The translations under genes and the position numbers were made by a program. From the NCBI RefSeq assembly GCF_010119205.1, contig NZ_WRXM01000002.1:984982-1048981 (forward strand): 64,000 nt of DNA, given 5' to 3'. Position 1 is the first letter of the stretch. Each line of letters starts with the position of its first letter. Of the stretch, positions 7,913 to 63,313 are shown in pieces. Under the pieces are notes generated by a model. It made no database searches, was not told where the DNA came from, and saw only the letters and a program-made list of their open reading frames with translations. Source of the DNA: Haloarcula limicola (lineage in GTDB: Archaea; Halobacteriota; Halobacteria; Halobacteriales; Haloarculaceae).

Positions 7913-7983
7913 ATTCTCCCTCTGGCCCTCGGAGCCATGAACCCACCGCTCAGGCGACTGGCGGTCGCCGTCACACCACCGGT

Positions 7984-8343
7984 TCAGGACGCCAGTTCGG
8001 CCCAGTCGGTGACCAGATCGTCGCGGTCGCCGCCGACGAGGAGGAGAACCACCGCGACCCCGACGACCGCGTACACTACCGCGTCGGTTTCGATGGTGAC
8101 GGGCGACAGGAACTGGACGCCGAAGGCGAGGGTCAGTACGAGAAACCCGGCCGCCGTCCACGGGGCGTCGGAGACGAGGGCCACGACACAGCACCAGCCG
8201 ACGAACCCGGTCATCGCCGCGCCAGCGGCTATCGACGCCGGGCCACCGGCTATCGTTTCCGGCTCGAACACGCCGACGAGCGCGAGAAAGACGATGACCG
8301 GGACCCCGACGGAAGCGAACAGACGGAACAGGGAGGGAGACAT
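7984..8343 (-). CDS. Small four-helix membrane protein of unknown function
   Basis: This 119-residue protein is almost entirely hydrophobic with four predicted membrane helices ([70 protein letters not shown]). It ends in an acidic tail. I do not recognise a family. It lies 71 bases upstream of hemB on the same strand and is divergent from the DedA gene, so it could share a transcript with hemB. The reading frame has haloarchaeal codon use, and its ATG is at 8341-8343. Confidence 0.65.
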
Positions 8344-8450
8344 CGTTGGATATACTCCTGTCTCCGAAATGAACGTTTCGTCGCCGTTCGTGACTGGACA
8401 GCGGCCGCAGCCAGAACGCCTATGTCCGCGCTGCCCGGGTATACGAGTAG

Positions 8451-28070: not shown

Positions 28071-28293
28071 GACCGCCAGAAAGCCCCCGGCCGCTCGATT
28101 GCCGGGACTCGCTGTGCTCCTCAGTCGCTACGCTCCCTGCGGTGCTTACGTCGTCCGGGCTAATCGAGCCCCCGGCCCCTTTCAGTCCCACCCGAGAGCT
28201 GGTCAATCGGCTGGCACGGGTGGACTGAGCGGAATCTTTGATTCCGCGAGGGTCGAACGACGCTTCGCGCCTTTCGGGACTTTCTGGCTGTTC
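28071..28293. repeat. Structured repeat element R2
   Basis: This second copy of the intergenic family starts with CGCCAGAAAGCCCCC (one change from the consensus CAGCCAGAAAGCCCC) and ends CTTTCTGGCTGTTC. The left arm pairs CTCGATT (28094-28100) with AATCGAG (28162-28168), followed by GGCCCCTTTCAGTCCCACCC. The right half is degenerate but starts GGGTGGACTGA and includes a perfect 8-3-8 hairpin, GCGGAATC/GATTCCGC with TTT loop, at 28229-28247. It fills most of the 493-base gap between hisB and the MFS gene; the rest shows nothing recognisable. Confidence 0.75.
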
Positions 28294-34843: not shown

Positions 34844-35590
34844 CTACTGTGCGCTTTCGCCCGACTCGACGGCGGCCATCGCCGATTCGAGCGTGAATCG
34901 TCCCTCGTAGAGCGCGCTCCCGACGACGACGGCCGCTGCGCCCGCGTCTTCGAGCGCCAGCACGTCCTCGACGGTCGCGACGCCGCCGCTGGCGACGACG
35001 GGGATGTCGACGGCCTCGACGAGCCGCCGGACGGGATCGGTCCGGACCCCTTCCAACTGCCCCTCGACGTCCACGTCGGTGAAGAGGATGCCGCCGGCAC
35101 CCAACTCCTCGTAGCGCGCCGCGGCTTCCGCGGGGTCCAGTCCGGTGCCCTCGGTCCACCCCGAGACGACGACCTCTCCCTCTTTGGCGTCGAGGCTGAC
35201 GAGGACGCTCTCGGGGTGCTCCTCGCTTATCTCGGCGACGATGTCGGGGTTCTCGACGGCGGCGGTGCCGAGGATGACGCGGTCGACGCCCCGGTCTAAG
35301 AGCGAGACGGCGTCTTCGGCGGTGCGGATACCCCCGCCCAACTGCACCGCCACGTCGTCGCCGACGGCCGAGAGCACGGCGTCGATGGCGTCGGCGTTCT
35401 CGCGCTCGCCCTCGAACGCGCCGTCGAGGTCGACGAGGTGGAGCGTGCGCGCGCCCGCCTCGACCCACCGCTGTGCGGCCTCGACGGGGTCGCCGTACGT
35501 CTTCTCGGTGCCGCGCTCGCCGCCCACCAGCTGGACGACCTGTCCGTCCTGCATGTCGACGGCCGGGACCACCTCGAACTCGGGAAACAT
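34844..35590 (-). CDS. hisA: ProFAR isomerase
   Basis: This 248-residue (beta/alpha)8 enzyme isomerises ProFAR to PRFAR in histidine synthesis. The catalytic Asp near the N-terminus lies in VVPAVDMQDGQVVQLVGGE and the second in ILFTDVDVEGQLEG; phosphate-binding loops are QLGGGIRTAEDAVSLL and PVVASGGVATVEDVL. The sequence starts MFPEFEVVPAVD, as in other haloarchaeal HisA proteins. It stands alone, not in a his operon. The large repeat element R3 begins about 118 bases upstream. Confidence 0.95.
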   Translation of the reverse strand: MFPEFEVVPAVDMQDGQVVQLVGGERGTEKTYGDPVEAAQRWVEAGARTLHLVDLDGAFEGERENADAIDAVLSAVGDDVAVQLGGGIRTAEDAVSLLDRGVDRVILGTAAVENPDIVAEISEEHPESVLVSLDAKEGEVVVSGWTEGTGLDPAEAAARYEELGAGGILFTDVDVEGQLEGVRTDPVRRLVEAVDIPVVASGGVATVEDVLALEDAGAAAVVVGSALYEGRFTLESAMAAVESGESAQ

Positions 35591-35707
35591 GGCCGAGGCT
35601 GGGACGGCGGCCGGCGAAAGCGTGTCGGTCCGCGCATCTGTCTGGACCGCCTCTCGTGAGAGACCGAGTCGCGCGCTGGTCGTATTTAGTCAAGCGACAG
35701 AGATTGC

Positions 35708-36168
35708 GAACAGCCAGAAAGCCCCCACGCTCTCAGCTCCCGCGGCTCGCTGCGCGCGCTTCGCGTGCTTGCTTCACCGGGGTTCGCTGAGAGCGCGGCC
35801 CCTTTCAGTCCCGCCCATGCCGGCTGACCAACCGGCGTCGGGTGGTACTGAAAGGGGTGTTGTCGGCGCTACGCGCCGACTGCTCGGGAGACCAAGGGTC
35901 TCCCGGTGGCTGGCTGAACGACGTTCACAAGAGCGAAGCTCTTGTGCAGCCCATCAGAAATCTCTGATTTCTGAGGACGGCGGACGACGCAAGGACCGCA
36001 ACGCAGTGAGGACCGTCGTTCGAGAGAGCGTTGCTCTCTCGTGATCACGAAAGACCAGCGGTCTTTCGGACGACAGCGAGGCCCCCGAGTTCAGCCAGGG
36101 CGAGAGCGAAGCTCTCGCGGGCAATCGGAAGCTTCGCTTCCGATGACAGCCGGGGCTTTCTGGCTCTG
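35708..36168. repeat. Structured repeat element R3 with an array of eight hairpins
   Basis: This copy starts GAACAGCCAGAAAGCCCCC and ends GGGGCTTTCTGGCTC. The left arm pairs CGCTCTCAGC (35728-35737) with GCTGAGAGCG (35786-35795), then GGCCCCTTTCAGTCCCGCCC follows. The right unit pairs CTGGCTGAAC (35910-35919) with GTTCAGCCAG (36089-36098). Inside and next to it lie eight perfect hairpins with 3-base loops: 35862-35880, 35885-35905, 35926-35946, 35954-35974, 36021-36041, 36048-36068, 36100-36118 and 36124-36144. Six have 9-base arms and two have 8-base arms. It lies in the divergent gap between hisA and the coiled-coil gene. No protein is encoded. Confidence 0.8.
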
Positions 36169-36219
36169 AGAACCAACAACTGCTAAAGTAAACACTGCCC
36201 GTGCGCCGGCGGGGGAACC

Positions 36220-36248: not shown

Positions 36249-36908
36249 ATGGCAGATAGTGGGTCCGCACCGTCGGGACTCGAATCGCTCCTGTTCGGCG
36301 AACGAGCCGACCTGTATCGTCGGTTCGTCCGCGCGACGGGCGCGATCACGGCGGTTCTGGTGCTCGTCTACGCGGTCGCACGGGCGGGAGTGGTGGGCCT
36401 CGGTGCGGGGCTGACGGGGGCTCTCGGGACGGCAGCGGGCGTCGCCGTGGCGGTCTTCGTCCTCGCGGGACTCGTGGAGTTCGTCGTCCTCGGGCGGGTC
36501 TACCAGCGAGGCACGACCGAAGTGGCACAGACGGCCGCCGAACTCGAAGCCGCCGCCGAGCGGTTGGAAGAGACCGCCGAGGAACTGGAGGAGACCGCCG
36601 ACACCGTCGAGGACGCCGCGGAGACGGTCGACGAGGCCGCCGAGGACGTGGAGCGAACCGCCGGGGACGTCGAGGAGGCCGCCGAGTGGGCGGGGGCCGA
36701 CGACGCCGCCGATCGGGTGACCGAGGCGACCGAACGGGCCGAGACGGCCAAAGAGCGGACTACCGACGCGAAGGAGACCGCGGAGACGGCCACGGCCGAG
36801 GCCGAAGCCGCCAGAGCGACCGCGAACGAGGTCGAGGAGACGGCTGCCGAGCGACGCGAGCGACTGGGGAACGCGGCCGACGACGAGAGCGACGACGGCG
36901 AACGGTAG
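36249..36908 (+). CDS. Two-helix membrane protein with long coiled coil
   Basis: This 219-residue protein has a short acidic N-terminus and two membrane helices (GAITAVLVLVYAVARAGVV and AAGVAVAVFVLAGLVEFVVL). A 140-residue alanine/glutamate/threonine-rich coiled coil follows, with heptad-like repeats such as ETAEELEETADTVEDAAETV. The coiled coil would face the cytoplasm. No enzymatic motif is visible and I do not recognise a characterised family. It resembles the HAMP/methyl-accepting helices in composition, but no chemotaxis signature (the conserved hairpin tip) is present. It directly precedes the tandem phosphate permeases, which have their own promoters. Confidence 0.75.
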   Translation: MADSGSAPSGLESLLFGERADLYRRFVRATGAITAVLVLVYAVARAGVVGLGAGLTGALGTAAGVAVAVFVLAGLVEFVVLGRVYQRGTTEVAQTAAELEAAAERLEETAEELEETADTVEDAAETVDEAAEDVERTAGDVEEAAEWAGADDAADRVTEATERAETAKERTTDAKETAETATAEAEAARATANEVEETAAERRERLGNAADDESDDGER

Positions 36909-48905: not shown

Positions 48906-48999
48906 CTGTCTCGCTCCGACGTTCGTCTCGAAAGCACCGGTCACAGGCAGCGGCCGGGAGCGCTCCGTCGCGCAGTGGGAGACCGTCGCTCTCTCGGGC

Positions 49000-49024
49000 T
49001 CACGGGCGGCTTTGCCGCCCGTGA
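49000..49024. terminator. 11-3-11 hairpin between convergent genes
   Basis: TCACGGGCGGC and GCCGCCCGTGA pair perfectly around a TTT loop in the gap between the convergent tiaS and uracil-DNA glycosylase genes. The position suggests a shared terminator. The 3-base loop matches the hairpins of repeat R3. Confidence 0.5.
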
Positions 49025-49044
49025 ACGACTGCGAAACCGGGTTC

Positions 49045-62907: not shown

Positions 62908-63058
62908 GCGACTCGAAAAGCGGTGACTGGTGGGTAATCACCGCAGCGGGACCGCGGTGCGTTGTCACAGGCATGGACACGAGGCACGGGAACCACGGTA
63001 CCCATCCCATCGCATGGCGTAATCGAGAATAAATGTTTTCCCGCGCTCCGCATCGCTC

Positions 63059-63313
63059 TCACAGCGGCCCGGCACACTCCCGACAGTAGGCGAATTCGCC
63101 CGCGTTCTCGGCTCCGCAGTGGCGACAGCGGCGATCGGACGAGTCGGACTGTGCCTCGGTCTCGGCGGGCGCTGCCCGCAGGTCGGGGCCGCCCCGGCGC
63201 AGTCGCTCGCGACCCTCGCGGGCGATACCGAGCAGCACCGGAGCCGCGGCGGCGAGCGCCACGAGCGCCATGACCGTCACGGCGAGGAGATACAGTTGCC
63301 CGGGCGAGACCAT
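63059..63313 (-). CDS. Membrane protein with C-terminal zinc ribbon
   Basis: This 84-residue protein has one N-terminal membrane helix (LYLLAVTVMALVALAAAAPV) and a cytoplasmic C-terminal zinc ribbon with two CxxC pairs (RRCRHCGAENAGEFAYCRECAGPL). Such small ribbon proteins occur widely in haloarchaea and are unassigned (DUF7577-like, from memory). It lies between the TrmB gene and a VOC-family gene; no operon is obvious. The zinc site is clear, the function unknown. Confidence 0.75.
   Translation of the reverse strand: MVSPGQLYLLAVTVMALVALAAAAPVLLGIAREGRERLRRGGPDLRAAPAETEAQSDSSDRRCRHCGAENAGEFAYCRECAGPL

Follow-up and report, generated by a model that had tools for sequence, protein, structure and literature searches.

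Two adjacent hairpins acting together as a mobile unit are known from mitochondrial DNA. These double-hairpin elements (cited in, for example, PMC2800124) are organellar, and their likeness to the units described here is one of resemblance only. In bacteria, CGTC-tagged REPs have been listed from five phyla and include neisserial dRS3 and Rickettsia RPE-4 and RPE-6 (Di Nocera et al. 2013, PMC3733652). They carry CGTC (or TGTC or CCTC) at one end and have a stem of 8–9 bp and a loop of 4–5 bases; the stem begins with A-T and T-A pairs, the unpaired tail is mostly CCA, and most copies form head-to-head dimers. The literature on them has yet to settle how they move with no transposase of their own (PMC3733652). 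The SMR-A and SMR-B elements of the haloarchaeon Haloquadratum walsbyi are 80–110 bp long with prominent terminal inverted repeats, and SMR-A elements insert into other mobile elements (PMC3119063). PATEs have a near-terminal palindrome, a heterogeneous end and a terminal oligonucleotide, with no inverted repeats and no target duplication (PMC3119063). A literature search by sequence, and for REPs in haloarchaea, found nothing relevant to the locus that we describe. Here we analysed a stretch of 64,000 nucleotides from Haloarcula limicola (the window) that contains an array of eight hairpins. We consider it probable, at roughly 75%, that the array is made up of four mobile double-hairpin units (W1, X, Y and W2, about 50–56 bp each), non-autonomous and separately inserted into a larger palindromic repeat, which had itself gone into a CTAG between hisA and the gene beside it.

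Eight perfect hairpins, all with loops of 3 bases, lie within 283 bp of the window (35862–36144). An initial annotation of the sequence had counted six with 9-bp arms and two with 8-bp arms and had judged that chance could not produce them. All are present, and 1,000 dinucleotide shuffles of the stretch yielded a mean of 0.012 hairpins and a maximum of 1. Further 3-base-loop hairpins that it had placed at 28229–28247 and 49000–49024 are likewise present, and the GCGAAGC or GCTTCGC centres that it had noticed occur in three of the eight. Two features went beyond that description: the hairpins form four pairs, with 4–7 bases between the members of a pair, and the pairs are enclosed by a 454-bp element with a perfect 14-bp inverted repeat. 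Across 787 kb of the nearest relative (G292), perfect hairpins that have a loop of 3 and arms of 9 bp or longer number 44, compared with 9.0 expected, so the genome-wide excess on which the annotation had staked its reading exists. Loops of 4 (12 versus 10.2) and 5 (6 versus 8.0) show no excess, and the excess at loops of 9 and 11 is smaller than at loops of 3; among short loops, strong enrichment is limited to length 3. Double hairpins occurred 18 times in the same 787 kb, compared with 0.2 in shuffled sequence.

Each pair corresponds to one cassette. Cassette W1 (35862–35905, reverse strand) comprises the hairpins at 35862–35880 (8-bp arms) and 35885–35905 (9-bp arms); its ends are not fixed exactly, and it is common to the paralogue L002 and absent from loci L286, L287 and L289. 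Cassette X (35924–35979, forward strand) contains hairpins at 35926–35946 and 35954–35974, both with 9-bp arms, and reads TTC-hairpin-GCAGCCCA-hairpin-GGACG, immediately 3′ of GACG; its exact empty site is found in L287 and its copies are class-wide. Cassette Y (36019–36072, forward strand) follows the similar formula TTC-hairpin-GTGATCAC-hairpin-GGACG, with 9-bp arms in both hairpins (36021–36041 and 36048–36068). Cassette W2 (36098–36151, reverse strand), with hairpins at 36100–36118 (8-bp arms) and 36124–36144 (9-bp arms), has CAGCC on each side and covarying copies at six other loci; both Y and W2 are absent from L002 and L291. On the other strand the W formula is CGGGAGACC-hairpin-AGCA-hairpin-GAC. 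Outside the array, cassette Z (28229–28278, forward strand) reads GCGGAATC-hairpin-GAGGGTCG-hairpin-CGGGAATGA and sits in a related element at about 28077–28290; its second hairpin is imperfect here, and intact copies exist in L014 and L020. A W-like double hairpin (48977–49024, forward strand), of which the first hairpin is imperfect, adjoins a synteny breakpoint relative to G292. The ends of X are better defined than those of W and Z. The stretch between 48918–49039 and 63041–63061 is inverted relative to G292; the W-like double hairpin marks the site of one of the two breakpoints, where G292 also has hairpins. About 450 bp of the window at 7952–8401 is missing in G292, which has 2 bp there; this difference is unrelated to the hairpin elements.

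Related copies of the element carry different sets of these cassettes. Without X, Y and W2, the window element aligns to the paralogue L002 at 83.5%, and the elements of H. amylolytica, H. rara and others have differing cassette subsets at the same positions. Whole double-hairpin units are present or absent at equivalent positions in other Haloarcula genomes, with the symmetry kept at related loci, and the nearest relative lacks one unit of the host genome where the orthologous site is concerned. At L020 of the source genome, Z lies within GGGACTGA|AAGGGGC, and G292 is empty there. A search with the array matched 30 of 32 congeners, many of the matches being cassette-sized blocks at scattered places. 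In related copies, gain or loss at fixed positions affects the whole two-hairpin cassette, and the cassettes have dispersed independently among congeners. The suggestion in the initial annotation that the hairpins are insertions of a palindromic micro-element holds in essence as regards insertion, except that what inserts is two different hairpins together and not a single hairpin; its alternative was that they may be a template for the formation of hairpins in single-stranded DNA. Cassettes can also be nested, as in L013, in which a Y unit occupies the tip of an X hairpin. In L288 and L289, cassette Y has opposite orientations relative to window positions 36019–36072, seemingly at the same position of the element.

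The repeat that hosts the cassettes spans 35712–36165 between the left inverted repeat AGCCAGAAAGCCCC (35712–35725, forward strand), a motif found family-wide, and its perfect 14-bp mate GGGGCTTTCTGGCT (36152–36165, reverse strand). Its central palindrome, CCCCTTTCAGTCCCGCCC ... GGGTGGTACTGAAAGGGG (35799–35857), is conserved across Halobacteria: its motif GGGACTGAAAGGGGC is present in 154 of the 292 genomes of that class and in 50 of 77 genera, with a single match in all for the reversed control. The element is laid out as an inverted dimer, in which AGCCAGAAAGCCCC–arm–variable hairpin–arm′–GGCCCCTTTCAGTCCCACCC is followed by its mirror image, and several other genera have mostly single half-units. 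The source genome (G000, 3.9 Mb) has about 25 related elements (45 matches), and the end motif CCAGAAAGCCCC is present in it in 34 exact copies. We take GTGGGACTGAAAG to resemble the end of a haloarchaeal CRISPR repeat; a CRISPR reading was rejected, as two copies of the motif face each other in inverted orientation, about 46 bp apart, with no array. Loci L008, L010, L018, L055 and L107 have 66-bp units of the form CTAG-N44-GAACAGCCAGAAAGCCCCG-CTAG, fixed in length, variable in sequence and sometimes chained, which look like nested element ends. L165 (Haloarcula rara) has GTGAGCGATTGCTGCATAGTAGACCGCAAACAGCCAGAAAGCCCC repeated, a short tandem repeat of the end motif around three CCAGAAAGCCCC copies, and in L279 a pair of host-element motifs lies 2 kb apart, a place considered as a candidate for an autonomous partner of the host element.

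The inserted host element as a whole occupies 35676–36209, with decayed CTAG copies at its ends (CTGG at 35676–35679 and CCGG at 36206–36209). It lies between hisA (34844–35590, reverse strand; NCBIfam PRK13585.1, 375 bits versus a cut-off of 243) and a divergent gene for a coiled-coil-like protein (36249–36908, forward strand), for which no family scores above its cut-off. In G292, the spacer between the two genes reads ...GAGTCGACACG-CTAG-CGGGGG..., with a single CTAG and flanks that are 88–90% identical, whereas the window has about 530 bp there. This comparison, with G292 as the one fully clean empty site, indicates that the host element is itself an insertion at CTAG. Some twenty more congeners that share the neighbouring gene have the short spacer alone, with no host element, and in G292 one entire element is nested at CTAG in the middle of another. 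CTAG lies exactly 53 bp ahead of CCAGAAAGCCCC in 16 of 75 copies, with variable sequence between. The presence of CTAG on both sides of the element and once in the empty site is readable as a duplication or as an element end. With its subterminal palindrome, a variable end of 36–50 bp and a conserved terminal tetranucleotide, CTAG, the host element is like a heterogeneous PATE; it may differ from PATEs in having an inverted pair, which sits 36–50 bp inside the ends, and CTAG on both sides. The setting also bears on whether the hairpins simply terminate transcription or regulate it locally in some other way. Several X copies elsewhere do lie between T-runs (CCTTTTTC...ACG-X-TTTTT), but the array in the window is upstream of both hisA and the divergent gene, no T-run follows its hairpins, and it is missing in G292, a close relative in which both genes are retained. 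We regard this explanation as extremely unlikely.

X is the best-sampled cassette type. A scan of the genome collection with the X linker found units in Halobacteria of many genera, among the matches listed, with the consensus GRCG|TTC-hairpin-GCAGCCCA-hairpin-GGACG across the class; as copies were gathered by a linker pattern, conservation of the linker and of the start of hairpin 2 is partly selected. Among the same listed matches, hairpins are absent where the record is clearly bacterial, the one exception being a MAG contig (L211) that bears a haloarchaeal-type TnpB copy. A strict X pattern occurs in 21 of 116 genomes, compared with 0 for the control. GGCG or GACG directly precedes X in 52 of 63 copies, and the loop is 3 bases long in 48 of 63 (both among the matches listed). 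Several copies interrupt genes for TnpB or other transposases. Compared with uninterrupted homologues, these are exact insertions of 56–57 bp at CG, at different sites in several transposase genes; against one uninterrupted plasmid homologue, for example, CTCGG-CGTCAAC becomes CTCGG-CG-TTC...GGA-CG-TCAAC. In one TnpB lineage, a 57-bp version keeps the reading frame (...IPDVHKSDSSCAAHQKSEISEDD...) and adds 19 residues at seven loci (L135, L154, L170, L172, L211, L222 and L248), in all of which the loop of hairpin 1 is 4 bases; the Salinigranum copy is annotated as a single whole gene. X copies that lie between T-runs, like two-way terminators between genes, were seen at L139, L140, L167, L178, L199, L295 and L300.

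This association raises the question of whether the units are remnants of IS200/IS605 elements, in which left-end and right-end palindromes were joined after loss of the core, as in terminal-only PATEs such as the 52-bp ones of Haloquadratum. The size, the two palindromes and the tetranucleotide of target plus end fit that description (PMC3119063), and X is often found inside TnpB genes. However, X lies within TnpB reading frames and not at element ends, in the source genome neither of the two TnpB genes has an X-like or Y-like hairpin beside it, and no transposon that could be the source of the units was found among the loci examined; we consider a remnant origin unlikely. Carriage within TnpB elements may nonetheless account for part of the spread of X.

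The best reading of the cassettes is as REP-like non-autonomous hairpin elements that move at the DNA level. As in CGTC-tagged REPs, there is a tag at the outer end: X ends in GGACG, the reverse complement of CGTCC, in 60 of 63 copies (among the matches listed), Y also ends in GGACG, and W2 ends in GACA (reverse complement TGTC). The stems are 8–9 bp, the two hairpins form a head-to-head hetero-dimer with CGTYC at both outer ends of X and Y, and the units insert between and inside genes with no dedicated transposase. Unlike in CGTC-tagged REPs, the loops are 3 bases and not 4–5; X has no CCA tail, TGGGCTGC following its hairpin 2 when read from the tag; and the stems of X and Y do not begin as those of the REPs do, although W2 hairpin 2 begins with AT. 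Because loop length and tail differ, we do not claim the cassettes as members of that group. Further differences are that the inserted piece is the two-hairpin unit itself and that the host is an archaeon. The cassettes resemble the SMRs of H. walsbyi in being haloarchaeal and transposase-free, and are unlike them in that X is 54 bp plus CG, has two hairpins, and shares only CGTYC/GGACG between its ends.

The arms of the hairpins vary together. In hairpin 1 of X, 18 different arms are 96.6% paired, compared with 70.3% (maximum of 75.4%) when 3′ arms are re-dealt among the matches listed; relatedness of the copies inflates such contrasts. Two-sided changes occur at positions 1, 2, 3, 7 and 8 (C-G, G-C and T-A at one position), and each needs two mutations; intermediates with a single mismatch are present in L172 and L248. 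W2 arms covary likewise at the shared position in seven loci. This covariation, and folding of the element that is far better than that of shuffled sequence (z = −10.7 and −13.4 on the two strands), could also be expected of domains of a structured non-coding RNA in which compensatory changes maintain the fold. Against this, the two strands fold about equally, no Rfam 15 family matches the window at gathering score, and units occur alone, between genes, inside TnpB genes, and in either orientation, so we judge an RNA explanation quite improbable. Arm mismatches in X (4 G-T and 7 A-C) show no bias to G-T, which is a weak argument for pairing as DNA rather than RNA. The GCGAAGC sequence is an extraordinarily stable DNA mini-hairpin, and the remark on it in the initial annotation has some support because GNA or its complement makes up most of the 3-base loops in the X family (36 of 48 for hairpin 1 and 49 of 60 for hairpin 2, among the matches listed). 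Loops also occur as reverse complements of each other (GAA/TTC and TCC/GGA). These, together with perfect arms of differing sequence, would fit hairpins that arose in place, through template switching at replication forks that made quasi-palindromes perfect. Such a process cannot account for one 54-bp sequence recurring in many genera at loci that are unrelated, for the exact insertions with fixed ends or for the conserved linker GCAGCCCA; the exact junctions rule it out as the origin of X, and we hold it to be very unlikely for the hairpins in general. Template switching may, however, act on the units after insertion.

For the REP-like mobile cassettes, each unit would work like a head-to-head (BIME-type) REP dimer, the two hairpins of which fold in single-stranded DNA. 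A putative transposase acting in trans would cut at the GRCG/GACG (CGYC/CGTC) tags, and the unit would be joined in again at another GRCG site. The arms would stay perfect through selection for a substrate that can fold, perhaps with the help of templated repair between them. Insertion 3′ of GRCG with a GGACG end is like the target rule of Y1 transposons, which is one-sided, and like the CGTC tag that REPs carry; an alternative reading of the X junctions is a 2-bp duplication of CG. The cassettes share with the GTAG REP/RAYT system paired hairpins with a tetranucleotide tag that are believed to be mobilised as single-stranded DNA, but they have no GTAG tag (X ends are GRCG and GGACG), and the source genome has no Y1_Tnp gene: the 99.98% complete assembly of G000 gave 0 matches to PF01797 for a Y1 (HUH) transposase. 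Nor does the presence of Y1 track that of X (14 of 21 X-bearing genomes versus 80 of 116 overall, counted by hand). Tentatively, and with considerable doubt, we propose a class-wide archaeal superfamily of double-hairpin mobile elements of about 54 bp that insert 3′ of GRCG, that would depend on an enzyme other than a Y1/HUH transposase or on a replication process, and whose arms would be kept complementary by correction at the DNA level.

The double-hairpin cassettes extend REP-like mobile hairpins, described from bacteria (PMC3733652), to Archaea, and come with exact junctions, a rule for the target and numerous natural empty sites. The in-frame TnpB copies represent a mobile hairpin turned into protein sequence, as with the Rickettsia palindromic elements. 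Haloarchaea with genetic systems would allow the movement of CGTC-type REPs to be tested.
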